Below are positions 22,749-64,000 of a stretch of 64,000 nucleotides of DNA, piece after piece. Source of the DNA: Thelephora terrestris (Eukaryota > Basidiomycota > Agaricomycetes > Thelephorales > Thelephoraceae); contig WIUZ02000003.1 in assembly GCA_015956445.1 (NCBI GenBank), positions 62,001-126,000 on the forward strand, written 5' to 3'. Below the pieces are notes generated by a model, which saw only the letters and a program-made list of their open reading frames with translations, was not told the origin of the DNA and made no database searches. Position 1 is the first letter of the stretch, and each line of letters opens with the position of its first letter. Position numbers and translations under genes: made by a program.

Positions 22749-25700
22749 CTACAGGTGACCTTCGTCTGTCTCATCTCCACTAGGCTCATCCGTCTCACCC
22801 CCACTAGGTGCATCTCTTACGTCTCTACCATCCCTGTCCCAAGAACGAGTGTTTTCGTGGGTAGGCCCACTACTGGCCCTATTCTCCTCTCCATCCTCTC
22901 CATCTTTGTCATCCTCTTCGGGCTGCTCCGGATCCTCACCATCTTCATCCTCCAGCTCACTCATATCAACGTCTTCTCCACTCTCTTCATCGGCACTGTT
23001 TTCATTGTCCTCTGGGCCACAAAGAATGCATCCTGGGATTGTAGGCCCGCTGCTGTCGCCGTTGTCTGTTAGTGGTTCCCCGTCTGGGTCTGGATCTCTG
23101 GCTTTGAGCGAAGGCCACGTAGTTCCCCACCCGGTGGCATCCAGCCATGGCTCAATCTGGCGCATGTACATGTGGCCGACCCCACCCCCACGGAATCGCA
23201 TGAACATGTCGCGATCTGCCAGTCTAGATTTACGAGTGAGCTTTGTGCGAGCATTGAGATGTTCTCACTTACATGTTGACGCTGAAGTGTTTCCAGTCTT
23301 TATCATCGGTTTCAGGCCTTCCCTCCGAAGGTCCTTCCAGGTATCCCTCTGTGCGCCCGTATTTGAAGCTGGGGATAAGGTGCACCGCTCTGACTATCTC
23401 ATCCGGGTGAATGAACCCAAAGGCGTCCGGCTCCTCGCTTTTGTAGAATGAGACTGAAGGATACCGCAGGGAGTTGAAACCGGGCGACCCTTGCGGCCTA
23501 TCGAGTTTGAACCAACGGATCCAGACCATTGGAAGCATACCAATGGCTTCTTCGTTGAGGATGGTGTTGGGAGCGCCGTTTGTAACCTTAGCATGAAAAA
23601 AGTCAAGGACTCTCCCATACAGGTAGGGGTGGTCTTCATCATCAGACAGGACCATGACGTCCTGGTATCGCCGCTGATTTAGCTTGTCTTGGCCTTCATG
23701 CATGTCGTAGGTCGTGTATGTCAGTTGTAAGGTCTTGTGTCGATATAGGGTGTTCGATGCAATTTTCACATGGCATCTGTCCTCGTCGGTGAAGTGATCG
23801 TAGGATGTGATGCCCTCGTGTAGCCATGATGTCCACCGTAGGATGTAGTTCTTGAGTTTCTTCAAGAAGTCCTTAATAATGGTTTTAGCATCAGCTTGGA
23901 GGGTGATGTCACCGTCACCTACCTTCTTTGCAGGATCGGGAGTTGTGTCACGGAACGTCGCTGTGAACGTTGTGAGGTTTATGTAGTTGCTTGAATCCTC
24001 AGACATCTTGAACCGTTCTCCTGAATCAGGCTGCCTTCCTTTAGGTGCTGGGTCACCAGAATAATTCTTGTCTAGATACTGGAGAACTTCCTGCCGCCGG
24101 TGCAGGCGACCAATGTCTCTTTCAGGATCGTGTTTGTTGATGCGCGGGTAAACGACCTTGGAGGTCCGGTGTTCGAGTTCCACCTGCAGATGTGCACCAC
24201 TTGAAGTCAGCAATGGCTGTTTGAAAGTAGATGCACCGTTTTGACCCACCCTCTGTGTTGTGTAGTTGTCGGTCGTGCCAAACTCACGGATGGTTTGTGG
24301 GTAGTCACCGAGAGCATGGAGCTTGTAGGTGTGGAGATTAAAGCCCATGTGCTTTGGCCCACCTCCTGACGCCCCAGATCCTGGGGTGTTTGTGGCTCTG
24401 CGAATTCGAGCCGCCCTTTCCCTTGGAAGTTCGGTCGTCTGGAAGGCACCACAGGTTACTGAAGAAAAGTGGCGAAGGAGGATGCCAAGATCTGTCGTGA
24501 GGCGTTCAAACGAGGCCAAGGTTTGTTCTGTGTGTAGCCGAAGCTTAGCATAAGCGTGCCAGCAGCCCATGACAAACACGAGGTCAAGGACTTCTTCATT
24601 GTGTGGAGCGGGGAGAAGTCCATCAAGAACTGGAAGTGTACACTGCCCACATTTCAGCCCACCGGTCCGATAAAGCAGAATATGAGCGGCCATACCTGTA
24701 GAAGGTCCTCAAAGTGGTGCGCTGCGAGCTTCTTCATTTGAGACGCATTGTTTGCAAACCGGCGGATGCCATCCTTTCCAAATGGCGCCACCTGCCGGAA
24801 CCTAAAATGGCGCCACCATGTGGGTTTTTCATTAATGAGATATTAAAGGCAAAGCCGCACCTTGCGTCAAGTTCGCTGACAGAGCGAGATGAGTGGGTGG
24901 ACAGGATTCGGATTATATGGGTGAACAACGCCTTCCATACGCCGAGCTCAACTTCATGCAACAGATCCACCGTGAGCAGAGCGTATACGTTGATGTCAGG
25001 GAGGCAGCTTGTGAACCCATTCTTTTACATACAGTTAATGCTCAAGTGAGGAAAGGAGAGCATCTGCACTCACATTGATTGGAATTTGTGAACCATCACC
25101 AAGAATCTTCTCTATTCGAGAGCCAGTGACCTTGAATCCTGCGAAAACTGCCTTGCGTGCCTTCTTGACATCACGAACAAGCTTGCTGGTGTATTCTCTT
25201 GTATCCGCGCGCGTTTGGCTATCCGCTGCCTTTCCCAAGTGTTGGACGTCGGCAAGCTTGACCTTGCACCGTGGACAGGGACAACGACCCATATTCTTAA
25301 TGGTGGCGATGAGTACCCTGTTCAGGGATATCAGCAACATTTTACATCTCTGAAGTTACTGACAGACTTCTCTGGATAGTCGGCCGTGTAACAGTAGAAG
25401 CGAGGGAACACACGGCGAGTGATTCCGTCTGGAAACTTGATAAGGATGCCTTCCTCATATGCCTTTGCGAACTCGCCCCTGAGAATGAGTTGGATCACTG
25501 CGTGGTATAGCTCCCTGCGACAGTGTGTGACAACCTCCGGTGGGGGAGGGACTCCGAATTCTTTGATATATGCATCGGCAAAATCATCAGGCAGCTGGAT
25601 GGGTCCACGATCAGTTCAAACGGAAACTGGCTTATGGGATCTTAATCTACCTTTGGAAGGTATGCCAGGTGGCATGCTGCGAACTCAGATGGCTTGCAGG

Positions 25701-26991
25701 TGTCGTACTTTGACATGTTTCCAAAGAACATGTAGAGGGGCCACAGGGACGCAGTCCCAAAATTGGCCAGATGAGTTTCGTCAGAGCCAAGCATCAACAG
25801 CACGATGACGTTCTCGATTTGTGGATCGTTTGCTGGGGGTGGTATCCCTTTGATCTTTTCGAAGAGCTTTGCTGCAACATTTGAGCTGTGTGCCTCGCCA
25901 TATACCCGGACAGGGGTTGTGCTCCCAGGGGGACACCACCACTCGGTAAAAGGTGTGTGTACGAACGATCCAGAGGTAGAAGGGTCCCGAATCTTTGAGA
26001 TTATGAGGTCAACCAGAGAGCGATATCGGACGCCAGTTACTTCAAACTCGGGAGCCTCGGCCTCTGTGAAAGACTTTGGGTTATTTGCTCGTGCGCAGGG
26101 CATTTTGATTTTAACCGATCCCGTTTTCCAGGGTCCACCGGCAATGGGTGACTCGGCTGCAAACTTATCGAGACGGCGAAGCTCTGTGGTGGCGTTGAAT
26201 CCTTCGATTTCTTCCACTTTCATCTTTCCCGAGAGGATGAGATTGGCGACTGAATTCATCCCAGGTGCTGTCTTTGAAGATGGACTGAGCTGGAGCGTCT
26301 TGACCAGTTCAAAGACCGAGTCGTTTTTGAACGGATGACGGATAGGTGTGTGAGTCTCGGTCCCAGGATTAGTTCGGTTGATACCAACAGGTAAGCTGGT
26401 GGCGGAGACTCGACAAACACGAAATCTGTTGAGTTGTGAACGCTGGGGAGAAGGCCTTGACATGTCAGGCGTTGCCAACACTGTTAGATCCTGTGCTACT
26501 GGTGAAGCCGTTCGCTGTTCAAAGGCCTCTTCATTCACCTGACCAACCGTAACAACAGGGGTGTAGGAGGTTGCCTCAAAATCCCTCCAAAGCTGTGGGA
26601 ACCGGCGGATGCGTGTTGGACGCCTTTGTGGTAATTCCGGCTCAGGAGAGATAGACCGTATGGGAGACATAGGTGCTTCTATGTCCATCCCTTCTAACGG
26701 TGGTTCAAACTATGTCCAAGTTGGTCGTCATTTGGTGGATTGTATGGTCTTAAAATTGTTCACACTCACCGGAAGCAGTCTTGGGATCTTTTGAGGAGGC
26801 TCTAACAAGACATCTTCGACACCAATTGTTTCTGAGTCTGAGATCCCTCGTTTGGAAAGGGTACTTGATTCAGTTGCCTTCTGTTTCCGAAGAGGACACC
26901 TCTTCATGTGGCTGACGGCTGCCCTGCTGGAGGAGCTCACATCCTTCTTCTGGCTCTTCCAACCACACTCACAAGAATCAAAAGAGACCAT
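22749..26991 (-). CDS. Plavaka-type transposase 2, spliced
   Basis: Exon 1 from the ATG at 26,991 encodes a zinc-finger-like segment (CECGWKSQKK then HMKRCPLRK) and ends at a GTGAGT donor near 26,771. A long exon (to about 25,643) contains TEWWCPPG, VIVLLMLGSDETH and LWPLYMFFGN. Later exons carry CHRRELYHAV, the CPCPRCKVK cysteine cluster, DLLHEVELGVWKALFTH, FGTTDNYTTQ, YIRRWTSW-like segments and RFKLDRPQGSPGF. The C-terminus has FMRFRGGGVGHMYMR and an acidic tail ending at 22,749. This is the Plavaka/CACTA-type transposase pattern, of a clade distinct from copy 1. No disabling change was spotted, but exon junctions were not all checked. Confidence 0.7.
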
Positions 26992-29486: not shown

Positions 29487-29799
29487 TGGCAAGATGTTGT
29501 TTTGATCTGTTCAACACTGTCATGTACATTTGGTTCATTACTTCTGGATAGTGCTCATTTGTCTTGCCTTCAAATCGCAGGAAATGCGGTCTTCAAGCTG
29601 AATTGCAATAATCTCAGTGGTCAACCTTTTTCTTATTAAAAATACGACAATATAATATATTCTAACAACACGTCAAGAACTGTTGTGTGAACCAAAGAAC
29701 TGAGCGGTATGCAGAAAAGATTACTACAAAGGTGTCCCACCTGCGCTAGCAAGCTGGTGGTTGCCAGGCCAGCTCTGTCCCTGCTCACACCAGCGAACC

Positions 29800-31240
29800 G
29801 GCCTTAGCCAAACCCTTTGGGTGTTCCCAAAGGGCCAGGGACACCATCCTACTCTCGCCAAAGAGCCAGCTTTCGCCGGACCCTTTGGGTGTTCCCAAAG
29901 GGTCAGGAGTGGACGGAGGGGTAAACCCTACTCGCGCCGGCGAGCTGGCCTTAGCCAAACCCTTTGGGTGTTCCCAAAGGGCCAGGGACACCATCCTACT
30001 CTCGCCAGAGAGCCGGCTTTCGCCGAACCCCTTGGGTGATCCCAAGGGGTCAGGGATGAATGGAGGGGTAAACCCTACTCGCGCCGGCGAGCTGGCCTCA
30101 GCCAAACCCTTTGGGTGTTCCCAAAGGGCCAGGGACACCATCCTACTCTCGCCAGAGAGCCAGCTTTCGCCGAACCCCTTGGGTGATCCCAAAGGGTCAG
30201 GAGTGGACAGAGGGGTAAACCCTACTCGCGCCGGCGAGCTGGCCTTAGCCAAACCCTTTGGGTGTTCCCAAAGGGCCAGGGACACCATCCTACTCTCGCC
30301 AGAGAGCCAGCTTTCGCCGAACCCCTTGGGTGATCCCAAGGGGTCAGGGATGAATGGAGGGGTAAACCCTACTCGCGCCGGCGAGCTGGCCTCAGCCAAA
30401 CCCTTTGGGTGTTCCCAAAGGGCCAGGGACACCATCCTACTCTCGCCAGAGAGCCAGCTTTCGCCGAACCCCTTGGGTGATCCCAAAGGGTCAGGAGTGG
30501 ACAGAGGGGTAAACCCTACTCGCGCCGGCGAGCTGGCCTTAGCCAAACCCTTTGGGTGTTCCCAAAGGGCCAGGGACACCATCCTACTCTCGCCAGAGAG
30601 CCGGCTTTCGCCGAACCCCTTGGGTGATCCCAAGGGGTCAGGGATGAATGGAGGGGTAAACCCTACTCGCGCCGGCGAGCTGGCCTCAGCCAAACCCTTT
30701 GGGTGTTCCCAAAGGGCCAGGGACACCATCCTACTCTCGCCAGAGAGCCAGCTTTCGCCGAACCCCTTGGGTGATCCCAAAGGGTCAGGAGTGGACAGAG
30801 GGGTAAACCCTACTCGCGCCGGCGAGCTGGCCTTAGCCAAACCCTTTGGGTGTTCCCAAAGGGCCAGGGACACCATCCTACTCTCGCCAGAGAGCCGGCT
30901 TTCGCCGAACCCCTTGGGTGATCCCAAAGGGTCAGGAGTGGACAGAGGGGTAAACCCTACTCGCGCCGGCGAGCTGGCCTTAGCCAAACCCTTTGGGTGT
31001 TCCCAAAGGGCCAGGGACACCATCCTACTCTCGCCAGAGAGCCAGCTTTCGCCGAACCCCTTGGGTGTTCCCAAAGGGTCAGGATAGGTGGGAGGGTTCC
31101 CTACTTGCGCCAGCAAGCTGGCTTTCGCCAAACCCCTTGGGTGTTCCCAAGGGACCAGGGGTTGATGAAACAGAAGATCTACTCGCGCCAGCAAGCTGGC
31201 TTTCGCCAGACCTCTTGGGTGTTCCCAAAAGGCCAGAGAT
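29800..31240. repeat. 147-bp tandem array with higher-order structure
   Basis: The word GCCAAACCCTTTGGG recurs at 29,954, 30,101, 30,248, 30,395, 30,542, 30,689, 30,836 and 30,983, exactly 147 bp apart, with diverged partial units on both sides. Each unit holds two perfect short hairpins, CCCTTTGGG-TGTT-CCCAAAGGG and CCCCTTGGG-TGAT-CCCAAGGGG (or a near variant), so the unit is itself a diverged dimer. Two unit types, marked by GAGTGGACAG and GATGAATGG, alternate in most of the array, giving a 294-bp higher-order period. Because 147 is divisible by three and stops are absent, long frames are open on both strands. Confidence 0.9.
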
Positions 31241-40581: not shown

Positions 40582-43500
40582 ATGCCCGGCAAAAAGTCCA
40601 AGAACCGGTTCAAATTCTTCACAGCCCGCTCGTCGGGAAACCCAACTAACACCGCCGTCGATCCCCTCGGCCCTCGAATGGCTCTAAACATCGACCCCAA
40701 AGTTGAAGGAAATCATCCTCGTCACGAGCTGGGTGGAGGTCGACCTGATTTGACGACGATCCTAAGCGATGACAGCCCCAAGCCTCCAGGGATCGCATCT
40801 CGAGACAGCGAGCAAGAACCTTCTGTACCAGGACCCTCGACTGCTGTTGCAGGTCTCAATTTCGAACAGAACGATCACACCGCAAGTGAGTGCTGCTGAT
40901 CTGTACCATCTCCGCCGATGTCCATTCCGATCCCCTGCCTTCGTCCATCAGGTGGAACCATTGGCCATATAAGCCAGGAAGGTGAACCAGAGATGAAACA
41001 CAAGGGTGCGTATTAACGACTTTGCCTCTTTTGTATTCTTATATAATCTACCAGTTCTAGTTCTAGAACAAGACCACAGATATGGAACGTCGGAAGCTAC
41101 AAACAATCGCACCGATGTCGAGAAGGCGTCCGAGAGCGGATTTGGTCCGCTCAGATCTCTCCTTGGGTCTATCTCTACCGCGTACGCGAACCACAAAGTT
41201 AGTCCACAACCCGCACTCAAATTCCTGCTTTGACCGACCCCTCTGTAGGAACCCTCTGCCATTAAGAACAAGGCCGAAGGGCTCATCTTACGTGTAGCCT
41301 CGCTGGATGAGTTTTTCGGGACACCCCCAAGTGACGTGGCTGAGCAGAGACGCCGGCCTGCAGTGATAAAGTACGATATTATCTCCCATCCCGCTCTGTG
41401 CTGACTTCCTTGTAGAGAGCTCAAGGAAATCGAGGATAAATTGTGGCGGTTGTCTGGAGAACCGAGGATGGAGTGGCTCATCGATCACACTCAACACGAT
41501 GAAGATGTTTCCAGGCTTCTTGAGGATCTGCGAGAGACGATCTTCCACTACCAGGTATGTTTGTGAGGTGACGCTTTTTCAATGTTAACAAGGATAGTAG
41601 ATGGCGCGACAAAGTCAAATTAACGATCGAGAACTCCTTTCAATAGTGAGTGCCCTAATTGCGTCTGCGTCAGCGAAATAACCTCTCTCTGCAGGACTCA
41701 GGTCGGAATGCCACCTGCTCCCGCGTTTTCGATGACACTTGCTTACCGTGATTCCCTCTGACAGGTGATGCTGCCACCATCGAAAAGCTTTGCCGCGCGC
41801 AAGAGGCCGAGTTTCGACATGCTAAACGTGACCGTTGTCTCAAGGGGACCCGTATAACCGTCCTGGACGAGATCGAACTCTGGGCGCGCGACGTTTACAG
41901 GCCCCCTGTCTACTGGTTGAATGGGCTCGCGGGGATGGGGAAGAGCACCATCGCACAGACAATCGCGGAGAGGATGTTCTCGGACGGAAATCTTGGTGCC
42001 TCCTCCTTCTGTTCGTGAGACTTTGAGGACCGAAGGAACCTCAAGTTCATCTTCCCCACCATAGCAGCCCAACTATGTCGGAGGTACCCCGAATTTCGGT
42101 CTATTCTCATCCCCATGGTGCGGTCGAATCCGGGAGTCATCCACGAGAACCTGGATAGCCAGATGAACAGGTTGTTAGTTCAGCCCCTCGTGAAGTCTGG
42201 CGTCTCAACCGTGGTCGTGATTGACGTGCTGGATGAATGCCAAGACAACGAACCCGCTTCGGCCATCTTATCCGTCCTTGGCCCGTTTATGGAACAAATC
42301 CCCAAGGTCAAGTTCCTCGTCACCGGTCGCCCGGAACCACGCATTCGAAACGCCTTCCGTCTCTCACTGTTGACCAAAGCAACAGATGTATTCGTCCTCC
42401 ACAAGGTCGAGCCAGGCCAAGTCAACAGCGACATACGGCTGTTTTATAAACTCAAGTGCTCTGAAATTAGGAGCCGCCGACCCGGCTTGGATGGCTGGCC
42501 GACCGAAGAACAGCTGCATCTGCTTACTGAACGTGCGGCAGGACTGTTTATCTATGCCATGGCCACGGTCAGGTTTATTGACCACAACATCAAGAACCCC
42601 CGGAGACAGCTGGACCTGCTGATACAATCACAAGAAAGTGCGTCCGAGGGGAGGACCAAACTTAGGGGAGACACAACACTTGATTCACTATATATGGCAA
42701 TTTTCCACAACGCCTTCAGTGACAATGACCCGGAGGACGATACCAGGGTCCGGTCCGTTCTTGGCGCTGTGTTCTTTGCCACAAATCCCCTCTCTCCAGC
42801 CACCATTGCTGTACTCCTGGGTCTTGATCCTGGAGACATGTTCCACCTCCTATCATCGTTACACTCACTCCTCATCCTCTCAGACAACATTGATCACCCT
42901 GTTCAGCCCTTCCACAAGTCTTTCTATGATTTCATCATTGATCCAAACCGATGTGACAATCCAAGGTTTTGGCTCTCCCCTCCTGATCAACATGCGGAAC
43001 TTGTGGTCAAGTGTCTTGAACTAATGAACCAAAAGCTGGGGCAGGAGCAGAGTGCTGAAAGGCTGGCCAAAATGACTTTGGATTATGCCTGTAATTCATG
43101 GCTCAAGCACCTTAGCAACATAACATCAACACAAAAGGCCAAAATTTTGCCTGCCATGCACCTGTTTTTTGGGGGAAATCTCTGGTTTTGGCTAGAAAGA
43201 TACTGGTTGATTCCCGAGAGGCTTAATAGTATTGCAGCAATAAACAAATGGTTGGGTGTATGTCATATTTCATCACTTGGCCTATATCCAGGAATTTATT
43301 GAATTGGGTCCAGATGCCACAGACTCCACATCTCTCCCATTCCCCTGGAGCCTTACCCCTGAAACCCCTTCAAATGGCATCCTGCAATTCCAGCTTGACC
43401 AGAGCAAGAAATTCCAATGCTTCAGATAAGGCTGAGATCAACCATTTGGACCAGGTAAGTCCTTGAGTCACCTGGTTCAATCTACCTTTAATTGTGGGTG

Positions 43501-44661
43501 TAGGTTCTGGAGCAGGGTTCTGTTGGTGGGGAGGAACAAGCAAGACTGTTGGACAAATTGTGGAGATTATGCAAGGATTTCCAAGATGTCCCAGAATCTG
43601 TCAACATGCTGGACTGCAACAATGTATCTGAGACACTTCCCATGCATGTCGGTCAGACTGCAGTGGTGTTCAAAGGGATCTACCAGGGTCGTTCAGTGGC
43701 TGTCAAGCTTTTGCATGTCAGTAACCGCAATACAAGTTTCAGAGTCAGTTTCATTGTCCTGCTTGATCCTAGGGGTGAATTTTTCTGACCAGCGACCCAG
43801 GGCTTCTGCAAAGAGGCAGTGATTTGGAGACACCTTCATCATCCCAACATTGTTCCATTGATTGGTGTTGCAATCAGCCCAGGACAGTGTTTGTTGGTTT
43901 CTGACTGGGTGGACGATGGGACAATCGATCAATTCATCAAAATGAACCCAGATGTGAACCGCATTGACCTTGTGGGTTTCTATGTCATCTTGGTATTGCA
44001 GAATCTCACTCCACAGCTACCTAGCTTATTGATGTTGTGGAGGGTCTGATGTATATGCACAATCTTTCTATTGTGCATGGGGGCTTGTGCATGGTGGGTA
44101 ACTTCTCATTCAGGCCAACTCCCTGTGATATGACAGTATTCACAGGAAAAGATCCTCATAACTCAGAGTGGTCATGCTTGTCTTATAGGCTTTGGCAATG
44201 CTACAACTGCCGGATCCCTACAAGACTTAAGCTTTGAAGATGTGACTGGAGTCTCTGGCCTCTGTGGGCAAGGAAGTCAACTTTGGATGGCTGTCAGACA
44301 TTCAGAGTTGAAAGCAACTGGGCTAACTAAGGAGTTGGATGTCTGTGCCCTGGGACTGGTCATTTATGAGGTTCGTATGTTTATATACATATAGCTCTGG
44401 AAATAGCCCTAAAAAGCAGAACTGGGGCAGGTTTTGTGTGGGTTCACTCCTCCCCATGAGAGTCAGGAGTGTTTAAGATTTCTGAGGAAGAGAAGAGAAA
44501 AACCAGAGGATGCAGCTGGTCTTGGATTCACTGGTGGGCTGTGGGAGATCCTTGAACAGTGCTGGTTATTTGACCCAGAGAAGCGACCAACTCTTGGGGA
44601 AGTCCTTGCATGCATGAGGGAAATTGCACCAAGCTGGGATAGCAGACAGGCAATAGTTTAA
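40582..44661 (+). pseudogene. NACHT protein with C-terminal kinase domain, decayed
   Basis: The first exon (from 40,582) is a Lys-rich start and disordered region. Short exons follow, and then a NACHT module: the conserved CLKGTRITVLDEI lead-in, Walker A GLAGMGKST (about 41,923-41,950), Walker B VVVIDVLDECQ (42,209-42,241) and VTGRPEPRIRNAF. After the NACHT region an HGD-type kinase domain begins near 43,550: VGQTAVVFKG, VAVKLLHV, HLHHPNIVPLIG, IVHGGLC, GFGNATT and CWLFDPEKRPTLGEV. Defects: TGA at 42,016-42,018 where relatives have Arg (CGA), a frame change between NACHT and kinase at about 43,400-43,430, and TGA soon after the catalytic-loop exon. HGD reads HGG and DFG reads GFG. Fungal NACHT proteins act in non-self recognition and cell death. 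Confidence 0.75.
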
Positions 44662-44869
44662 TGTTTAACAGTAGCCTTGACCCTGTTTGTTGGGTTATTT
44701 TGGTTCAGGCTTTCATTGTTTATATCATGTTGTAAAACCACAGGGTGAATGGTGGCAACTGCTCCTCAACATGGTGATGGATGGTGTAGAACCTTGAGGG
44801 AGCATGATGCTGAATAATAGTTCACCTAATTGCACCCTTCTGAGTGGAGCTAAGTTCTCATAACATGTC

Positions 44870-46080
44870 TCCTTACTTCAATCATGCCAGCCTTCGCCAA
44901 GACTGCTAATCTTATTGTTTTTGGGCTGTACATCTTGGATAGTGTACCAATATCATTGTTCCCCATTAACGTCCCCATGATATTTGGCATCCCCTCTGTT
45001 TATACCTTGTGTCGAAAGCATTAACATTCCAATCACTGCAGTGGTGAAATGACTACACGGATACCACCTTGGTAGATCCAATGCAACTGGGTTGGGTATA
45101 CTGAGCCTAGTCAGGGAGTTGTTGCCTCAGGCTCTTTTGTAGGAATTGAGAGGAACATTGACTCACACTGTCGCACATGAGGAAGTGATGTTGGATATTT
45201 TAGTGAATTTGTGCCAGGGCAGAAGTTCCAGCTCAAGGTCACATGACTAAGTCACATGACCAACCACATGACCGGCCACTTAGCTACACCAACAAGCCAA
45301 GGACATCTGGCCCAGGACCAAGCACTGTCCCCACCAAACACACCATCTACCACCCCTCACTACCCCTACCACTCCCTAAACCATACCAACAATCATTACC
45401 CCCAACATTCCACCATCATTACCCCCAGAAGACCCTTCCCACAATCCCAAGGGACAGTCCCAGCAGGAGGGAAAGGCAAGGAGAAGGAACATGCCCAGCT
45501 TCTACCCAGGAAGCAGTTACCCAAAAAGATGACATCATCTTTGATGGGAATGACCAAGACCCAGAAGCCTTACCTAAAGGTAGCAAGATTATTCTTGATG
45601 GAACCTGTCAAGCCTTAGCTCTTATGGCATAGAAGCATGACCTCAGTCTGCACTTACCAAAGGGTTATGTAAAGGTCCAGCTTCCAGGACCAGAGTGACA
45701 TCAGTCACAAGATTACATCACCACCATTCAGTGAAGCTTACCTCACTTACTTCACCAGTACAGCCTCAATTCATATGCTGTAATTAGAGAGTGACAGGTA
45801 CCCAGGTATCCAGGAAAACAGCAGTGTGGGAACTAGGCAAACAGAGACAAATAAGTTAGATAGATACAGTATATAAAGAGCTCACTCACATCTCAAAGGG
45901 CAAGGAAGAGACCATCGCTCTCTACCCCAAACCACCATTTTCTCTTGAGGCCAGTCCCTCAGAGTCTGATCTCTACTTCTCTTAGGGCATTCCCCTTTGA
46001 GCCTTGCACCTTACAGCTGTGTGGTTGAGTATTTAGCTATACTCCAATCAATAGTGCCATTCTTTACCCCCAACCAGTCA
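44870..46080 (+). mobile_element. LTR-type remnant, probably Ty3/Gypsy-like
   Basis: An A/T-rich stretch with a TATATAAAG box near 45,872, pyrimidine-rich initiator sequence and a leader-like tail, preceded by a Pro/Thr-rich open frame at 45,243-45,632 that could be an element C-terminus. No polymerase motif remains. Borders are not resolved and no target duplication was seen. Old and incomplete. Confidence 0.35.
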
Positions 46081-46947
46081 GCAACTAGTCCATCAGCAAA
46101 ACCGTAGGCTCTTCAACGATTGTTGAAGACACGGAAGTGCAGAAAGCAACCAAAGCTTCACGCCCATTTCGAAGATCATCGAAGCTGAGCTCAACCTTAA
46201 AAAGACCACCAAAGTGCTCCAAAGTAGGCAGAAAGACACAATAAAGCCGGGTTTAGCGCCAGTCAATCTGTTATACGTATTTAATTTGCACCTGCGCTCT
46301 TCCAGATTGTAGGGGAAAATAAAATTTATTTCCCAACTAATTACCACAGCTAACCACAGAGTGCACTTATAATAGAGGGAAGAGAGTGGGCCTTGCATAA
46401 TTGAGGAGGAAGAGTGGTGCCTGTGGAAGTGGGGTGATGAGTTGAGAACAAGTGCCACATTGAACTGGGCGAGGCTGGGGAACAGAAAGTGGCTGGTGTG
46501 TGATGAAAGCACATAGAAGATAATGCATGTACCATTCAGATGAGTGCAGACAACAGAAACCTATGCTACAGAAATTGCCAGCAACGGGGCTCAACACAAT
46601 GCGTGATGACATTGACGAGGGCAGCGCTGGAAGCGGGACATCAAATAACTTTGAAAACAAGGTGCGAGACAAAGGTGGGACCAAATACCTTTCATGGAGA
46701 CACATCAGAGAGGAACATTGATGCACTGTGTCAGACGAGTGGAACAGCATTAAGACAGACAGACAAGCATGTGCGATGGCCACACATACGTGCAGTGGGG
46801 GATTCCGAAGTAACTTGACACCTGAAGGCCTGATAATGAGTGTTACCGGAGTGCGGTTCAGAGAGGAGAGGGTGAGGTGTGAGACGGAAAGGCGTGAGGA
46901 ATGAAGATGTGACCTACAGCACTTATTTTGTTCAAGTGCTGCCATGC
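46081..46947. other. No confident gene
   Basis: Open frames on both strands (for example 46,367-46,945 minus) show no family motif and overlap each other. Probably part of the flanking element remnants. Confidence 0.4.
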
Positions 46948-49817
46948 TGTCAGGGCCACTCTTCGCCCGTCAGACACCAGTGCTGTTGGTGAGTAACACT
47001 CCAACCAACAAGACTAAATGGGGCAATGGGGGAACGACTTCCCAATATCCACCCAGATAATACGTAGTCCAAACGCAATGGACGAGCGTTCTCCGGTAGG
47101 TTGTTCCGAGTCCACAACAGTAATACCGAGCCTCTATCAGGTTAACCCCTATCGTCTTCTGAGGGCGATAACAAGAGCCCAAGGATGGCGACTCAAACTG
47201 TTGACTTGATTCGAAGAGCAGTGCATAGCTCGATGTCGCGTCCGAGCTAACTTCAAACACCGGTTAAGAGTCAAGACTGAAGTGAGAGAGGAGAGCGAAC
47301 AGTTCAAAGAGTTACTCGACAAGCTCTTCAGTGGCCTGCAGCAAATACACCAATGCTACAAGGAGAAGAGGACTTCCCGAGATATCAAAGATGGGGAGTC
47401 CTCAGCTACTCTACCTAAGTATATATAGAAGAGTGACCGGGACAGAGATGATCCTATCTAATAATAACTCGGAGCAAAGAAGGGCCGAGAGTAAGCATGA
47501 AACATAAGCAGCCTGGAGTGTGAGAAACAGATAACAAGGAGTGACTAAGCGGTCAATAGAATAGAATAGGGGTCATGACGTCGTGTGGGAAAGGAATGAC
47601 AAAGAGCGAAAACACATGCGAGGGACAAACCAATGAGGAGACGACGTGTCAGCTCGTACAATTGGGGCAAGGAAAGGCCGAGTGGGGCAATAGAGTGACT
47701 GCAGAGGTGACGTCGTTGGGAGGGACCTAGACCGGGGTAGAGATGATGCGGTCCAATGGCAAATAGGGCGCGAGCCAGTCGAGGATTGGATAAAGGGCGA
47801 GCGCGAACCAGCTGTTAGACCCATCAACCCATCCTCATCATTACCCACCAACAACACCATCCACCATGCCCATGCTCAACGAACGTGTCTTCTGAAGTGG
47901 TGGCAGTACGTCTACAATTATGCCGATGGACATTCGCAACCCGTCGTACAAGAGATACTTTCTCCCATCGGATACCGCGGTGTATCCAAGCTACCATCAG
48001 GTCGCATTGTCACGTGTTGTCGATGTTGACGATTACTGACAGCGCTTTAGATTGCAGAGGTTGCCGCCTGAGTGGATGTCCATGACCTAGAAGGGACCAT
48101 CCCGGAGCCGCCTCGATACCTCACCATGGACGATGAACTGTGGTTCCACGGTTTGATCGATGACCAACTACAGGGGGCGACATTCGGGGTGAACCTCAAC
48201 ATCGAGATGCGTACACCGGAAGAGACTCCGGTCGCGGCGTCCTTGTGGCGTCTTCTTCAGCTGGGGATCTACGACCTTGCCGATAACGAGGGGAAGTGGC
48301 CTGGGAGCACTAGGTCTCAACACTTCACAGCGTCCGTGGCCCACCGTCTCTGGTTCCTATTGAGAGCGGAACAGAAAGCGGTGAGTCAATCCGTGCATAT
48401 CCTGTTTAAGGGATAACACTGATAGACTTCTAGAACAGACACTTGAAGCGCGAAGTGAAAGAGACCAAGGCTGAGTTTCGTCGCTTGGTTCAGGAACAAG
48501 CTGATCACAACTGCTTGTTCCATTTGATCACTGATATGTTGAGGACGACTTTTGAGAGCGAGATGCTCCAGATGCGTGAGGAACATAATCGGTTGGTGGC
48601 TTCCATCAAGGACAAGGACAATGACATCGCCCGGGATTTCCGAGAAGCCGATCGAAGGCTGAACTGTCACAGGAGGGAGATCAACGAGTTACACACCAAG
48701 GTTGGCGCTGATCATATGTCTAGATTTGATAGAGATTGACCAGGCCTTTCAGGTCAACTCGTTGGACGATGCCTTGCCGATGTTGGGGGCCCACGTGGAT
48801 TCCATGAGCAATCGTTTGTGCCATTGTCGCTCCCGATCGTCTGCTGCGGTGCACGAAGAGTCGGAGGACAAGTTGATTCCCGACAGGATGGCGTCACCAG
48901 CATCGGAGGGGTCGTACCATACGCCCATGCGTGTCGCCGAGGAGATCGAAGAGGTGGTCCGTGAGACGTCCAAGGAGACTGCCGTCAATCCCACGAGTAG
49001 TTCTCCAGAGTTGGAGTACGAGGAGGAGAACCAGGTGGCTATCCCCGTCCCGCCTCCGTCTATTTCTCCAGTGCGTGGGCAACGCGCTTCTCATGCTCAT
49101 CGTTGGGGTCCTTATACCAGTCGTCGTTGTCCAGTGCGTGGGATGCAGACCAGCAATCCGAACGTCATCTTCGGAAGTGACTTCCACGGACTTGCCGTCA
49201 TATCAGGATGCGACACTGCTCCAGTGTCGTCTTGATCACGGGGAACTGGTTCCAGTGGAGTCCGTCAACGTGAACGACTTAACTGCCCTTACGCTCTCGT
49301 CGGTCCGGCGTGCCGAGGTCACCTTGACATTGGTGACCAGCCTGAGCGACAGGATGGCGGAGTGGTCAGCGGAGCGGAGTCGGATTCAGGCTCAGACCTC
49401 TCTCGATTTAGCAAGAGAGCGCCTTCGCGCCGAACTTCATCTGGCCATCGCCCATCGTCTGGAAGCGGATTGGGTCGTCGCGATGGTCGACGAGGGAATC
49501 GCCGAGAGTGCCTTGGAGGAGGTGGAGGGAACTGCTTCTGTTGATGAAGCATACTGGGGAGCTTTCCAAGGATGAGTCCATACGCATAGTAGCCTATTTT
49601 TAGCGTCGTGCAGATTCAACTCCGGCGGCTAGTCGTCTTGTGTCCTTCGTGTTGGGTCGCTTGTAATACCATTGTCTTGTGTTTGTCTTTCCTATGACGT
49701 GTGATTCGTGATAAGGGAACAGATAGGGTAAGCAGAAAGGGGTATGGGTAAGGAGAGTGGGCGAAAGTTGGGTGTGAAAAAGGTTTGAAAAGGGGGTTGA
49801 AAATTCAGCACGCTGAC
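46948..49817 (+). mobile_element. LTR-like element C, relative of element A
   Basis: Begins TGTCAGGGCC and ends CAGCACGCTGACA, the same termini as element A, with a length of 2,870 bp. It has a TATATATAG box near 47,421. The flanks (CATGC and CCACT) do not match. Here the element is followed by a leader-like segment also found behind the remnant at 14,090-15,430, so it may be the left LTR of a once longer element rather than a solo copy. The coding region is at about 48,126-49,575. Confidence 0.65.
48126..49575 (+). other. Coiled-coil coding region of LTR-like element C
   Basis: Open segments matching those of element A: MDDELWFHGLIDD at 48,126, a charged coiled-coil segment at 48,443-48,728, and an acidic, Pro-rich segment with LEYEEENQVAIP. 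A final conserved segment ends at 49,575. The segments are separated by short gaps with GT and AG signals. The MITE found in element A is absent here. No enzymatic motif. Confidence 0.5.
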
Positions 49818-54691: not shown

Positions 54692-56324
54692 TCAGCGCAT
54701 TGTGACCATTAGCCCTCTCCGGGCCAGCGGTTGAACTTTGGATGTCTTTCGAGTCATATAAGTCCAAGTCTGCGCCAGCGAAACATGAAACCAACCTGGT
54801 GGTGCATCCACAGAGCCAAGGTGACTCTCACGTGCTTCCGGGCGGTTCGTTGGGTCTGATTCATCTCCCGTAGAACCAGACACGGTTGGCGATGGACCCA
54901 CAAGGGGAGGCGTACCCGGCGGGGTTGTAGTATTCGGCGGCATGAGGGTGTGCCAATTTGCGGCAGCTTCATTAAGGCGCTTCGCGAGTTCCGTCGTCGT
55001 GGGTCGTCGCGTTCTATCGCTGTCCCAGCAGTGCTGAACGATTTCCCACAGCGAGTCAGAGAACCCGATAGCAGAAGCATTCTGGGGTTTTGCGGGGCGC
55101 AACCCATCGACGACGGAGTCTATCACCGCCACTTCCTGCAGATCTTGGAACGGCGTCTCTCCCGTAAGGACCTGGATGTGGTATAAAAGAGGAAACGGCC
55201 GATACCCTCACTGTTCAAGTACCTGAAAAATCGTCATCCCGAACGCGTACACATCCGCTTCTGGTGTGACTAACGGGTATGCCGCCCCGAATTTCTCAGG
55301 ATTAAATCGTTCGGGAGCCTTGAACTGCACCGTTCCGTGTCCTAATTGAACGTCGAACGGTATAGGTTCTCCAGGGTCGAGAGTCACGGTCATGCAGGCG
55401 AAGCCCGAGAGGTAGGCAGTAGGAGGCCTAGGCGCATCGTTCTTCACAAAGATACTTTGCTGTTGGCCGTCAGATAAAGCAACTAGTCTCAAATAGAGGG
55501 ACACAAACTCCTGTGGGATCTCCGTGGACGATACCTTCATCGTGCAAGTACTTCAGACCCTGTGCCGCTCCATGCAGCTATCACTCGACTCAGCGGAAGA
55601 AATTCCTGGGGAAAGTGAGTAAAGTTGCGCACCAGTTCTAGTCTGTTCGCGGGATTATGCTTGGTGTATTCCATGATATCGCCACCCGTCACCCACTCTG
55701 AAACAGTAGCAAGCGGGCCCTTCTCCATGTCCCCGTAGGCACCGAGCAACTTCAAAACGTTGGGATGAGACAACTTGCTCCAAAGGATGACTTGTTTGCA
55801 AAACCCCTGAAACAAAACGTTCCGATCTGCCTTCGAAGAGGAATATAATGGACATGCTGCACACCTGTCTTATCCAATCCGGGTTGTTTTTCGGGGAGAT
55901 CGCGCGGGCCGTTACAGCGACGAGGTTCCCTTTGTGCTTCCCTACCCTAATATCCGTGGATTCACCCCCCGCACGGATCTCCTCAGAAATTTCCAGCTCC
56001 TCCTGCATAGCCACGGAATCAGGTAGGCGTTTGTGACTTGCGGCCAACTTCCACAACATGACTGAAAACGTCTGCTTCTCGGCCTTGCTAATCTTGCGCT
56101 CCGATAGACCCTGAAGGCTAGTTAAGCCCTGGAAAGACCAGTGCGGATCCGCGACTTACATGATCCAAAATTTCGATGCACATTTCCCCATCCTTAGGGT
56201 CCAAACGCGTGACAAAATCCTTTCCATCTTGACCCGCTAAGATCTTGGCTAAGATCCGAACAGATTCGGCCTTGTCGGTTGCGCTGGTCGCATCGGCCAA
56301 CAGCTGTTGGTAATCCTCAAACAT
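54692..56324 (-). CDS. Pseudokinase of the HGD-type (TKL-like) kinase group
   Basis: Six exons in phase: complement(54692..55171, 55223..55459, 55509..55577, 55633..55806, 55865..56110, 56160..56324), 456 residues. Residues 1-55 are helical and end ILDH. The kinase domain runs from about 95 to 350. The beta-3 lysine is replaced by Thr (VAVTARA, residue about 122). The catalytic loop reads VHGDPTG (residues about 213-219). The DFG position reads LSGFA. The APE motif (KAPERF) and the C-lobe (CWDSDRTRRPTT) remain. Loss of Lys and DFG predicts no catalysis. The tail is Pro/Thr-rich, and an alternative last exon could extend to 54,447. It lies 1.6 kb from the kinase-STAND genes and shares their exon plan, including a 23-codon catalytic-loop exon. 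Confidence 0.8.
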
Positions 56325-57967: not shown

Positions 57968-60791
57968 ATGCCCATACGAGCTCTTGACAAGTTAAACAGG
58001 TCATCGGAACAGTTCCCGGAGCAGCTGGACAAACTACTCCATGATCCGAAATGGATAGAGGCCGTTAAGCTTGCTTCGGACGACGAACTGAAGGAGCTGA
58101 TAGGCCGCCTAGACAATGTAAGGTCTATTTTACACCAACTAAATCCCTCTTATCGCCCCTAGATCCTCGACGATTTGGATTCCTTCGGATCGCCGTTCAG
58201 GAAGTGCCTTCACGTATTGAAGAAGATCTGCAGCTCAAAAAGGATTCTACCGTCAGCCTATGAAGTTTCTGGTAAACTCTCATGCGACACCGCCCATCCA
58301 GTTGCCTATGGTGGATTTTGTGACGCCTACAGAGGGACACTTGACCTCGAAACGGTTTGCATAAAACGGCTTCGGATATCTTCCACAGGTGATCAGCTGC
58401 TGGTCGAACGGGTGTGTCATCGTTATAACCTTCGGTCAGACTATCGCCCTTACAGGCCCCGAAGTCATTCTGCAAGGAAGCTGTAGTATGGAGACGCCTC
58501 AATCACCCTAACATCGTTCCCTTCAAGGGTGTTACCTTTGACCCCCTCCAACTCATGTCAGAATGGATACCTGGTGGAGAATTGAGACTATATATAAGGG
58601 AACATCCCGAGGCAAACTTGATCAGCCTTGTGAGTCCACTACTTTGCATCCCCAACCAACACCTCATCCCATTTACAGCTGCTTGGCGTTGCCAAAGGTC
58701 TCGGGTACCTGCACTCATGCAATGTGATCCATGGGGATCTTAAGGGAGTGCGTGTGATTTCCAGTTTCCACTCCCCACGCTGATGTCATAATGTATACAG
58801 ACTAATATACTGGTCGACGCGACAGGCCAGGCACGAATCGTGGACTTTGGTCTTGCAACGATCGCGCGAGATTCAAACTCGCTTGACACTACGAATGAAC
58901 ATCAGGCAAACACACCCCGATTCACTGCGCCTGAGGTCCTGCAAGGCCGTGCCCCCCACAGCAGCAAATCCGATGTATTCGCGTTCGCGATGGTTGTGAT
59001 CGAGGTAGGAGGCGATTGGCCCACCCCCTACACAATACACTTACCGATCAATCAAGGTTTTTACCGGCAGGGTTCCGTTTAGTACTTTCGCGTGGGCCGC
59101 AGCCATGACAAATATCGTCATGGGGGTGCGTCCGGAGCGACCCACTCACCCCGCTTTCACGGATCACTTGTGGGCGTTGACACAGCGGTGCTGGGAAAAG
59201 GACCCAGAAGATCGGCCATGGGTTGGTTCGATAATAGAACAATTGTTAGTGTCTTCTTCAATCAATCGATGGGCCTCTCATTCACTAGCAACTGCAGAAG
59301 TACTTGCGAAGGTCCGCACTCGATTTGTACACAACCGGCCGCGCCGCAGATGTGTGAAACTCCTCCTTCACCAAGTCTTGGCAGCACGACTTTTTCCTTT
59401 CCATTTATATCCCTCCCTCAACCTCCCGGATATCTCTACGGACGCGACAATACTCTCAAGGACCTTTTGAATCTAACGGAACGACTCGCGCCCGTGATGC
59501 TGGTTGGAGCGGGAGGCACGGGAAAAACTGCCATTGCTCTTACGCTGCTCTGCGATTACCAAATCATGAACAGGTTTGGCAACCACCGCTACTTTCTGCG
59601 CTGTGATAACCTCGAGAATTCGCTGGATGGTTTCCTTGGGCGTTTATCCGAAGCAATCGGCGTTCCCAAGCCTGCGGACCTGGCGCAACTCCGATCACAC
59701 CTGGAGGTTTCCCCGTATATGCTGGTTTTGGATGGCGTAGATTCCATCCTCGACCCACGAGCTTCCGGAGCAGCCGAAATTGCTACAGCGATGGAAGAAC
59801 TTGGTCAGTGTCCAAGGGTCTGTCTGCTCGCCACCAGCAGGATAGATGCCAAGATCCCGGGCTTCCGCCGCAAAGAGGTATCGACGCTCTCCTTGGGGGC
59901 CGCTCGAAACATCTTCCACGATTGCTGTTCTCTGGAGAGGTCAGTTGGCATCGACACCATCATCGCAGAACTCGACTTTCATCCGCTTTCGATCGTGCTT
60001 CTCGCCAGTGCCGTCAGCGAGAATTTGTGGGATGAGCCGGCGTTGTTGGAGGTGTGGAACGGTGGAAAGACGTGTATACTCAAGGCATCTGGTCGGGAGA
60101 GCCTGGAGGACTGCATCGAGTCCCTCCTTCATACTCCGACTATTCAACGACTCGGGGCCACTGCTCGGAAAACACTCGAGGCGATCGCAAATTACCCCGA
60201 TGGTGTCAAAGAGACTCGACTATTCACCACTTTCCCAGAAATAGGCGGAGTAGATGACGCAGTCGATGCGCTATGCAAGTTCTCCTTGATGTATCGCGAA
60301 GAGGGTTTCGTAAAGATGCTTTCGCCATTCCGACTTCATTTTCAATATACTGGACGCGTTGCCAATTTAGGTTTGCCCCTCCCGTTCTGTATCCTTAGTT
60401 GTCGTGGGTTGACATTTCTCCATGGTTTTCCAGGCGTCCAGCCCAGGCGGCACTCGCCCGACAGACTCGGTGATAAGAACATGGCGGAAGGGTGTAAGTG
60501 TCTCTTATCTCATCCTTTCGTGGGTTTACGGTAACATTCATCTGTAGTCGACCCTGCATCCGTCATGAAAAAGTTTCGTCTCGTGGGGACTCAAGTCATG
60601 GATAGTATGTACCCCAAAGATTTCATACCGTGTCCACTTCATCATTTGCATCGTCTCTAGAACTCTTCGATTTTCTCCATATTTCTGGAACCGATCCTCC
60701 CGATCGTCCACAAGATGTGCCCGTGGCAGCGACGGACCCCGTTCGCCATTCGCGTAAACGATCGCTGGCCCCCAACGGCGGCACCAAATGA
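57968..60791 (+). CDS. Kinase-STAND NTPase fusion protein 1
   Basis: Ten exons keep phase: join(57968..58117, 58163..58411, 58477..58629, 58679..58747, 58801..59004, 59057..59244, 59298..60370, 60434..60493, 60548..60604, 60661..60791), 777 residues. Residues 1-50 form a helical N-domain (EQLDKLLHDPKW). The kinase domain spans about 85-335: AYGGFCDAY loop, beta-3 Lys in VCIKRLR (about 118), HGDLKG (about 202-207), VDFGLAT (about 222), APE and CWEKDPEDRP. A linker leads to a STAND/NB-ARC-like module: GAGGTGKTA P-loop (about 408), VLDGVDSI Walker B, LLATSR sensor and DFHPLSIVLLAS. The C-terminal 100 residues have no clear TPR, ankyrin or WD repeats and end in a basic RKRSLAP stretch. Catalytic residues are present. 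The protein probably acts in cytosolic recognition signalling, by analogy with fungal NLR-like proteins. Exons 8-10 are less certain. Confidence 0.8.
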
Positions 60792-62106
60792 TACTTACTT
60801 GATGCAGAAGCACCCGGAAGGCCTTCCTTCGGTCCCTGTGCTCACCGATTTATGTAGAAACTTTCTCCCATCACGATGTATGCTTTTATGTTTTGGTACC
60901 TGACTACCTCGGCTGGTGCAAGCCCGCCTTCATCTCACTTGCATTTCTCTCTATTCCCGTCGGTGGGATTTAGGCATGGTATATTACAGCGCTTTACAAG
61001 ACGATAGACCCCATTTTGAATCAAGTAGTATAGAAATTTTCATTTATACCGTGACATACAAATAATGTTCGGTTGTTGCCTTGGCCTTAGAGGGAGACCT
61101 TGGCAGCCACCACCATTTTTCGACCGCGATAGTTCATGCCTTCTGTGGGTTAGGTTCCTGAAGGCCTGCGAGAGGAAATTTATGATACCCAGCGGGCAGT
61201 GTCGGTAGGGAGGCAAATTGTGCGTTCGCAGATATCTGGTTTTGCTTACGTAACCGACGGATTACCAAATATGGTAAGTATCTACACAGTTAAAGTTCCT
61301 CGCGTTTCGCATACCGCGCGTAGCTTTGGCCAAAACCGCGATGTCCGTGTCATGCCAGTCAAGGCCAGTCACTGCCAGTCAGTCCCGTCCCTAGAAAACC
61401 TTGATCCCATCGCTGGCGCGGGTTCTCCCCAAGCCAAAGTTCCCCCAGGACGGGGATCGCAGGATACAATATCACCAGAGTTCAACGGGAGACCGGGGCT
61501 CACTTGATGGGATTCCAACTCGTGCGATCGGAATTCCAACTACCCCTTTACTATCTGGTTCAGAACGCGTCCACTTGTATGCAATGTTCGGAACACTTGC
61601 ACGCGGATCGGCACAACTACTTGGCGGGCATGCAAAGGAGGTGAGGGAGCCTCAGACGAGGATAAGGTTACGGGGAGATGCGTCTTCTCGGTCAGGTGGA
61701 GATTTGCAGTTCGTGGATCGGTCGCAGGCCGCAGCTTAGACGTTCGTGCGACTTACAGCCCCTGCGGAGTAGGCATGGAGCGCATGGGCGAGAGTGGACA
61801 ATCTGCTCGGGAAGCTTATGCTTGTGGACTGCTGGCCGTGGATCCGACAGCGGTAATTGTGGTGGAGCTGCTCGGGATCTCATATAGTAATCATGACCAA
61901 TCTACTGGTGAGTACAGTTTTATCACGTCGCGTGTTATCCGCACCTCAAATCTACAAAGTTTCGTCGTGGGCTCGTCAATAAAACCACCCTTGCTGCCTC
62001 ATGACCTCCATACGCTTCGTGCCATATACTCCTGTTTTCAATCGCCACCCCACGAGCCCTCTCTGCTAGCGACTCCTGGGCTTGGACGTTCTGAACAGGG
62101 CCTGTT
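60792..62106. other. Intergenic, no gene seen
   Basis: Spacer between the two kinase-STAND genes. From about 61,400 it resembles the region upstream of copy 1 (from about 57,300), with short shared blocks (GAGTTCAACGGGAGAC-like). No convincing coding frame. Confidence 0.5.
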
Positions 62107-64000
62107 ATGGACATACAGCCCCTTTACGAGCTAGACAAGTCTTCGCCTCAATTTCCGGAGCAGTTGATACAACTGCTTCGTAATGAACAATGGATGGCGT
62201 CCCTTCAATCATCTCCAGAGGGCGAGCTGGGGAAATTGATAGGCTACCTAGACAATGTGAGGATCACTCCAACATCAACTAAGCCCTGCTTATCATCCGC
62301 AGATCCTCGATGGTCTGAATCCCGCAGAACAACCACAAGCGTTCGGAAGGTGCCTCCGAACATTGCGGAAGATTTGCGGCTCGAACAAGATTCTCCCCTT
62401 GACTTATGAAATTTCCGGTAAACTTTCATTCAATTCCGACTACGCGGTTGCATTTGGCGGATTCTGTGACGCCTATACTGGGTCCCTTGGCCCCGATAAA
62501 GTCTGCATAAAACGGCTTCGGGTATCCTCCACAGGCGATCAGGAGCTAGTCAAAAAAGTGTTTTATCTTCATTATCGTTGGTTATACCATCGCGTACTGA
62601 CAAGCTCTGAAGTCACTCTGCAAGGAAGCGGTGGTTTGGAAACACCTCGATCACCCGAACATCGTGCCCTTCAAGGGGATCACCTTCGAGCCCCTCCAAC
62701 TCGCGTCAGAATGGATACCTGGTGGAGAACTGAAAGAGTATATAAGGCGAAATCCTGACGCAAACTTGATCAGCCTTGTGGGTCTATTGGTCTGCACCTC
62801 TGGCCTACATCTCATCCATTTTCAGCTGCTTGGCGTCGCCAAAGGCCTCGGCTATCTTCACTCGTGCAAGCTGATCCATGGAGATCTCAAAGGAGTGCGT
62901 GCAACCCGCGCAATATCCACTACCTATGCTGATGCCGCGATTGACCCAGGCTAATATATTAGTCGATGCTGTCGGAAACCCACGAATTGTGGACTTTGGT
63001 CTTGCGACGATCGCGCGAGATTCAAAGTCGCTTGAAACTACGAACGACCATCAGGCAACCACACTCCGGTTCACTGCGCCTGAGCTACTGCAAGCCCGTG
63101 CACCCCATAGCAATGAATCCGACATATTCGCATTCGGGATGGTTGTGATCGAGGTAGGGGTTGATTGATCCTCCTCACAAAATAAACTCACCGGTTGATC
63201 AAGGTCTTCACCGGAAAGGTCCCGTTCAGTAAATTTATCTCTTACGCAGCCATGGCGAACATCATGAATGGGGTGCGTCCGGAGCGGCCCCTTCACCCCG
63301 GTCTCACGGATGACTTGTGGACATTGACCCGGAAGTGCTGGGAGGAGAATCCGCAGGACCGGCCACAGATTGATTCGGTGGTTACACACCTGTTAGTTTC
63401 TTCATCAATCAACCGACCATCTCTCATTTATTGATAACTACAGAAGTGCTTGCCAAGTTCCACAATCGACTTGGACACAAACTGCAGGACTGCCAAGGGG
63501 CGAAATGTCGCAAGCGAGCTCTCCCACCCTAAGCCCTAGCGGCGTGACTCCTTTCTTTCTATTTCCACCCTCCCCATCATCTCCTACATATTTCTTCGGT
63601 CGCGACACTATTTTCGAGGACCTATTGAGTTTTGCCGAACGGTCCGTGTCCGTCACACTGTACGGGGCGGGAGGCATGGGGAAAACAGCTATTGCGCTTA
63701 AACTCCTTCACCACAGCCGCATCATCAACAGGTTTGGTGCGCGCCGCTACTTCATGCGCTGTGGCGACCTCGAGGATTCACTAGAAAGTTTCCTTGGACG
63801 TTTATCCGAAACATTAGGCGTTCCCCTGGCCATGGACGTGGCGCAACTCCGATCAAATGTAGAGGCTTCTCCGTGTGTACTGGTGTTGGACGGCATGGAT
63901 TCTATCATCGACCCACGAGCTCATGGAGCAGCTGAAATTGCCAAGGCGATTGAAGAACTCGGTCAGTGTCCAAAAGTCTGTCTGCTCGCTACCAGCAGGA
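62107..64000 (+). CDS. Kinase-STAND NTPase fusion protein 2, cut by window end
   Basis: Exons 62107..62256, 62303..62557, 62625..62777, 62826..62894, 62950..63153, 63204..63391 and 63444..>64000 reproduce the structure of copy 1. Five of the first six exons have identical lengths, and exon 2 is two codons longer. Kinase motifs: FGGFCDAYTG, VCIKRLR, HGDLKG, VDFGLATIARDS, APE. Then comes a linker and the nucleotide-binding module FFGRDTIFEDLL, YGAGGMGKTA, VLVLDGMDSI, LLATSR. The frame is open to the last base. It looks intact within the window. The linker between kinase and P-loop is the most diverged part between the copies. Promoter and N-terminal domain are also diverged, which suggests the duplication is not very recent. 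Confidence 0.85.

Follow-up and report, generated by a model that had tools for sequence, protein, structure and literature searches.

Tandem genes of Thelephora terrestris predicted to join a tyrosine-kinase-related domain to a STAND-type nucleotide switch

Results

Two neighbouring genes with a predicted kinase-switch architecture lie at the end of a 64,000-nt stretch of the Thelephora terrestris genome (assembly GCA_015956445.1, contig WIUZ02000003.1, positions 62,001 to 126,000 of the forward strand; hereafter the window, with positions counted from its first letter). Copy 1 (57,968–60,791, plus strand; last three exons tentative) and copy 2 (62,107 to the window end at 64,000, plus strand; the gene runs past it) start 4,139 bp apart, the spacing given by an earlier model-made annotation of the letters, the sequence-only reading. 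Each appears to encode a short N-terminal region, helical according to that reading, a protein kinase, a linker and a module resembling the signal transduction ATPases with numerous domains (STAND). In copy 1, exon 1 (57968..58117) opens the N-terminal region, and exons 2-6 (58163-58411, 58465-58629, 58679-58747, 58801-59004 and 59057-59244) supply its remainder and the kinase; intron 6 (59245..59297; 53 nt, GTTAGT...CTGCAG) marks the kinase-STAND junction, exon 7 (59298..60370) holds the linker, the P-loop STAND-like module and a region with a possible winged helix, and tentative exons 8-10 (60434-60493, 60548-60604 and 60661-60791, with stop codon TGA) form an in-frame GT-AG chain. In copy 2, the N-terminal region and kinase occupy exons 1-6 (62107-62256, 62303-62557, 62613-62777, 62826-62894, 62950-63153 and 63204-63391), followed by intron 6 (63392..63443; 52 nt), in which the kinase frame would meet a stop if the intron were retained, and by exon 7 (63444..64000), which carries the linker and the STAND-like module and is cut at the window end.

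The seven-exon models translate without stops in both copies (copy 2 being incomplete at the window end); they were placed by eye, and the models of the gene family were built in view of one another and are thus not fully independent. All introns of the two models are GT-AG, with an unusual donor (GTTTGC) at intron 7 of copy 1, and intron lengths range from 45 to 63 nt across the four gene models of the family described below. Exon 3 of copy 1 could also begin at 58,456, with an acceptor nine bases further upstream; the acceptor used is the one that agrees with copy 2. Across 1,975 aligned columns the copies share 74.5% identity; the duplicated block extends upstream at least to 57,906/62,045, a weaker match is seen at 57,510/61,553, and the N-terminal region (residues 1-78) retains 47% amino-acid identity.

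The kinase half is firmly recognized by profile search, as the sequence-only reading had proposed: both proteins exceed the Pfam cut-off for PF07714 (E 4.2e-43 for copy 1 and 6.5e-44 for copy 2) and also strongly match PF00069. Active kinases carry a beta-3 lysine, an alpha-C glutamate, a catalytic aspartate with its lysine and asparagine, DFG and APE, and translation of both copies yields the corresponding VCIK, FCKEA/LCKEA, HGDLKGTN/HGDLKGAN, DFG and APE, including the four motifs (VCIK, HGD, DFG and APE) named before. Both copies are non-RD kinases, the arginine of HRD being replaced by glycine (HGD), and the glycine-rich loop, read by eye from the alignment, retains one of the three usual glycines. 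Judged from this set of residues, the tandem kinases are probably active. A search of the PDB by sequence matched 2,629 entries with E no higher than 0.001, and the best 60 of these were headed by EGFR, a Src/Abl ancestor, TNNI3K and CTR1, that is, by proteins of the tyrosine-kinase group and the TKL group.

A closer placement is suggested by FslK, described as a fungi-specific, mainly Agaricomycete kinase lineage near the tyrosine kinases (PMC3937382, cited passages). The tandem kinases share its three differences from tyrosine kinases, namely the lack of AARN (DLKGTN/DLKGAN), the absence of the first proline before APE (TPRFTAPE/TLRFTAPE) and a proline after GXR (GVRP), and thus appear to bear the marks of this tyrosine-kinase-related lineage, judged by motifs rather than by a tree. 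Extra domains are given for only 16 of the 241 FslK members in the same source, whereas the tandem genes carry an attached switch.

The motifs of that switch, also listed in the sequence-only reading, were recovered in exon 7 of the two copies: a P-loop (GAGGTGKT/GAGGMGKT), LDGVDS/LDGMDS at the place of Walker B and LLATSR at the place of sensor 1, and copy 1 further shows an HPLS stretch at the position where NB-ARC proteins have GLPL (copy 2 ends earlier). The proposed profile check was borne out in part: NB-ARC/NACHT-like matches were obtained, but curated Pfam cut-offs were not reached. The matches under these cut-offs comprise AAA_16 (E 1.6e-5 in copy 1, 4.1e-5 in copy 2) and NACHT (3.1e-4 and 1.5e-3), and exon 7 of copy 1 searched alone stayed below them as well (AAA_16 5.3e-6, NACHT 1.5e-4); NB-ARC (PF00931) fell short of its cut-off in copy 2 (16.4 bits versus 23.5) and was unlisted for copy 1.

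In a profile-profile comparison by hhalign, the switch half matched a profile built from 12 bacterial proteins with a probability of 98.7. These had been picked by eye from 25 loci found with a P-loop DNA pattern, after BLAST scores had been seen and with the four best BLAST matches included; because of this hand-picking, the comparison was repeated with the P-loop and everything before it removed (80.2, E 1.4e-5) and accompanied by six controls (the kinases compared with the bacterial set, the switch compared with kinases, the switch in reverse and three runs with shuffled columns), all six of which scored 0.1-0.4. The NB-ARC cut-off is itself passed by 10 of the 12 bacterial proteins, L021 and L001 being the two that fail. 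Searches of other collections added little: by sequence the switch half had no significant match in the PDB (best E 0.065 and 0.052), a plant RPP13-like protein standing among the non-significant matches (E 1.5 and 0.92); NCBIfam offered FxSxx_TPR at E 0.0037 and 4.1e-5, only 15.8 and 22.3 bits versus a cut-off of 300; and the best PADLOC match was DrmD (copy 2, E 0.0065). None of the pattern matches to possible relatives was confirmed, either in viral contigs (3 with the single-exon query and 15 with the alignment query) or in genome contigs (372 with the alignment query).

That kinase and switch belong to one chain, a further claim of the sequence-only reading, finds support in the reading frame, the exon phase and the pattern of indels in the two predicted genes. 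Splicing from donor 59,245 to acceptor 59,298 brings the switch exon of copy 1 into frame, as does 63,392/63,444 in copy 2, and the removal of intron 6 gives one common frame in both copies despite its different length (53 versus 52 nt). Each of the six introns carries a 1-2 nt indel between the copies, and the coding alignment contains only two indels, one of 2 codons and one of 4 codons. The models of two relatives in the window that lack the switch also lack intron 6, their last kinase exon continuing to a stop, as expected of a fusion junction. A programmed frameshift joining the two halves was rejected because the shift needed is not equal in the two copies.

The border of exon 6 and intron 6 shows a further feature. 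Read in the kinase frame, 27 nt across it encode LLVSSSINR in both copies, and the 4 nucleotide differences between them fall in 4 codons and are all synonymous; the same-frame test on the other five introns gave 1/8, 0/8, 1/7, 0/7 and 1/7 synonymous among the differing codons. The probability that four random changes are all silent is P 0.005 (0.009 with transition bias), or approximately 0.03-0.06 after multiplication by six introns, and we therefore treat the intron-6 coding signal as a lead and not as a result. Between the copies, intron 6 is also better conserved than any of the other five introns (0.74 versus 0.62-0.69), and branch-point motifs fail to set it apart from the others.

The ratio of nonsynonymous to synonymous substitution rates (dN/dS) between the copies shows purifying selection on both the kinase (0.29, bootstrap 0.20-0.41) and the switch (0.42, bootstrap 0.27-0.65); for the N-terminal region it was 0.43 (bootstrap 0.22-0.81). 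In sliding windows of 40 codons, 1 of 25 exceeded 1 (residues 361-400, 1.19), in and just after the linker. The earlier suggestion of recognition loci under diversifying selection is therefore not supported at these values, only the linker being near 1, in a two-copy comparison that has no power for selection at single sites.

The copy 1 model (781 amino acids) ends as a short tail 82 codons past exon 7. In keeping with the earlier description of an end without recognizable repeats, no repeat family was among its Pfam matches at E up to 1, so that the C-terminal WD40, ANK or TPR repeats typical of fungal NOD-like receptors (NLRs) were not found in copy 1; nor were repeats found in seven chosen pieces downstream, which cover part of the possible frames. 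For comparison, the C-terminus is Pfam-annotated in only 52% of a published set of fungal NLRs (PMC4986451, cited passages).

A translated search of the window pointed to four genes of this kinase family. The kinases of copies 1 and 2 are 66% identical (345 aligned columns), the other pairs 27-34%, and five kinase introns occupy identical alignment columns in all four modelled genes. A divergent relative, at 54,692..56,324 on the minus strand, lies 1.6 kb upstream of copy 1 in divergent orientation and encodes an N-terminal region, which has no Pfam match at E up to 0.1, and a pseudokinase (PF07714 E 9.8e-26) in which VAVT, HGDPTG and SGF replace VAVK, HRDLKxxN and DFG. Its model, six exons without stop or frameshift, has the five shared intron positions and lacks a STAND module; the protein carries a Pro/Ser/Thr-rich tail. 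By position and homology alone, this pseudokinase is a reasonable first candidate for a partner of the tandem kinases.

The fourth member is a kinase-like domain at 43,314..44,661 on the plus strand (exon table; PF07714 E 1.1e-27 from 43504 on), with HGG and GFG in place of HRD and DFG and with VAVK kept. It lies directly 3' of a NACHT/NPHP3_N NLR stretch (41,752..43,257, plus strand; NPHP3_N E 5.7e-7 and 2.4e-10 for two pieces searched separately) that contains an in-frame stop at 42,016-42,018. A 56-nt GT-AG intron (43,258-43,313) would fuse the two in frame, and the kinase-like part has its own ATG at the exon start; the domain is thus possibly fused to the NACHT (NPHP3_N) gene, and such a fusion (41,752-44,661) would have the reverse order, switch and then kinase. 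This part of the window is also sharply depleted in CpG (42,750-46,000; observed/expected 0.09 in 44,001-46,000 versus 0.92-1.08 in blocks from 48,001 on), with an excess of TpG or CpA in many 250-bp blocks, and the reading frames of the kinase exons within it are intact.

Discussion

In both predicted proteins the kinase is N-terminal, the position that defines a published class of fungal NLRs. Protein kinase is one of the 12 classes into which PMC4986451 (Table 1) divides the N-termini of fungal NLRs, PF00069 and PF07714 are among the 19 N-terminal profiles in the cited passage of PMC9815663, and kinases are named among the enzymatic effector groups of NLRs in that of PMC10197012. Since N-terminal kinases on fungal NLRs have been published (PMC4986451, PMC9815663), the architecture is already known in fungi, and the tandem genes add a further member, with a tyrosine-kinase-related domain, no repeats found in copy 1 and an unusual intron at the junction. 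The tandem genes resemble the published class in the predicted joining of an N-terminal kinase to a STAND-like nucleotide-binding domain; they differ in that repeats were not found in copy 1 and the switch half lies below Pfam cut-offs, and also in that a short N-terminal region is added and the intron at the junction may in part be coding. The 12 kinase-bearing NLRs described in Sordariales likewise combine kinase and NLR in one protein, but those kinases are CHK2/PRD-4-like and C-terminal in 9 of the 12, whereas the tandem-gene kinases are N-terminal and tyrosine-kinase-related (PMC12258605, cited passages). A more distant likeness is to the animal necroptosis pair RIPK3-MLKL (described in the passages of PMC12881547), in that the window has an active-looking kinase gene beside a gene for a pseudokinase with an N-terminal extension; the likeness is one of neighbourhood and layout only. 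MLKL-type executioners combine an N-terminal four-helix bundle with a pseudokinase; the minus-strand gene of the window shows the residues of a pseudokinase, and its N-terminus has no Pfam match at E up to 0.1.

We favour, with some confidence, the reading that each gene encodes an NLR-like signalling protein in which a probably active non-RD kinase follows a short N-terminal region and is connected by a linker to a STAND-type switch. It draws on the parts and their order, the exon plan shared by the models, the catalytic residues and the purifying selection on both halves. The steps by which such a protein might work are borrowed from established NLR and STAND biology: the switch would rest in a closed state and restrain the kinase; a cue, perceived either by a partner or through the protein's own tail, would lead to nucleotide exchange and oligomerization; the oligomers would bring the kinase domains together and activate them by proximity; and the activated kinases would phosphorylate a downstream target. 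By this analogy it is plausible that nucleotide-driven assembly is turned into phosphorylation. Given that the search of copy 1 found no sensor repeats, the switch may receive its cue in trans, as does CED-4, a switch without repeats. Signalling of non-self or of stress would be the most likely function.

Several observations weigh against this reading. In neither copy does the switch half reach a Pfam cut-off; an AlphaFold model of it, built from a two-sequence alignment, was too poor for use (mean predicted local distance difference test 40.4); and the region after sensor 1 searched alone scores 0.3 in hhalign, no better than the controls. It is because of the missed cut-offs and this control-level score that we describe the module as NB-ARC/NACHT-like and stop short of assigning it to NB-ARC, and the winged helix that may be present in exon 7 of copy 1 is accordingly drawn from a collinear global alignment only. 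Furthermore, the 40-codon linker has a dN/dS of 0.92 (bootstrap 0.39-2.23), with 14, 16 and 14 changes at the first, second and third codon positions, and so shows no protein-level constraint, and the synonymous-only change running into intron 6 hints at some kinase-only product beside the fusion.

The last two points lead to alternatives that place the boundary of the protein elsewhere. One gene could give both a kinase-only protein, by retention of intron 6, and a kinase-STAND protein, by its removal, a splice switch for which the four silent differences in LLVSSSINR and the conservation of intron 6 above all others would speak; yet the stretch is short, was noticed post hoc in one of six introns and could be a splicing signal at the DNA level, and the retained forms are unlike, copy 2 stopping after LLVSSSINRPSLIY and copy 1 continuing to a stop near 59,470, so that we regard this possibility as unlikely. 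Alternatively, each copy could hold two genes, one for a kinase that stops within or shortly past intron 6 and one for a STAND protein that begins at an ATG in exon 7, given that the kinase frame stays open beyond the junction, the linker is free of constraint and an in-frame ATG precedes the P-loop by approximately 50 residues (exon-7 residue 18 in copy 1, 21 in copy 2). Such an arrangement is quite improbable: just 105-113 nt or so would separate the last kinase exon from these ATGs, which stand at unequal aligned places in the two copies, the switch frame is already open upstream of them (from 59,083 and 63,397), and the frame-joining splice has been kept in both copies despite the change in length. 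Very doubtful, in our view, is a receptor kinase to which the switch is joined or not according to the splicing of the conserved 52-53 nt intron, one gene thus supplying free as well as switch-controlled kinase, and which acts with the divergently placed pseudokinase as candidate substrate, in a necroptosis-like pair.

Other alternatives accept the single chain and assign it a different role. The kinase could be an integrated decoy, bait for foreign effectors fused to an NLR switch, and not the output enzyme, as proposed for the Sordariales NLRs with their mostly C-terminal kinase domains (9 of 12; PMC12258605, cited passages), and the kinase-like domain of the window that lacks HRD and DFG does sit after a NACHT gene. 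We consider a decoy distinctly unlikely for the tandem copies, as their kinases occupy the N-terminus, the usual effector end, and both copies have kept the catalytic residues under purifying selection. Finally, copy 1 and perhaps both copies might be in decay, as what is left of a longer NLR after the loss of its sensor. The short end of copy 1 without recognized repeats would fit, as would the birth-and-death turnover under which fungal NLRs have been described (PMC4986451, cited passages), but seven modelled exons without stop or frameshift in either copy (copy 2 incomplete) and the dN/dS values of kinase and switch make such decay very improbable.

The favoured kinase-STAND fusion would be of interest because fungal kinase-type NLRs are listed in print, but the passages cited above give no tested mechanism, and none for a fungal kinase-STAND protein was found in the titles and abstract openings searched, subscription literature lying mostly outside that search. 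Two paralogues of simple layout (kinase, linker and switch, with no repeats found in the complete copy) beside a pseudokinase of the same family would make a compact system in which to ask if phosphorylation in fungal immunity is driven by assembly of the switch, and the tandem pair would also be suited to asking whether splicing decides the placement of a kinase under switch control.

Other features of the window

Much of the remaining window is repetitive. A direct repeat of 2.46 kb (5,066-7,512 and 46,942-49,388; 85% identical) is perhaps a mobile element, and matches to the Plavaka transposase (PF18759), which is linked with Agaricomycetes, occur at 9,332-10,201 and 25,645-26,709. Together with the short introns, the NPHP3_N-type NACHT gene and the FslK-like residues of the kinases, these matches point to a filamentous fungus of the Agaricomycetes as the most likely source, in line with Thelephora terrestris. 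A family with a 58-bp period, in direct and inverted copies approximately 74-97% identical, is found at 11,587-12,505, 16,177-16,646 and 19,024-19,439. A tandem array at 29,779-31,160 (147-bp unit, 9.4 copies, 93% matches) is open in one frame per strand (445 and 496 codons), and its Pfam matches to 3HCDH_RFF (plus frame) and Olduvai (minus frame), both above cut-off with no single stretch passing, are probably repeat artefacts.

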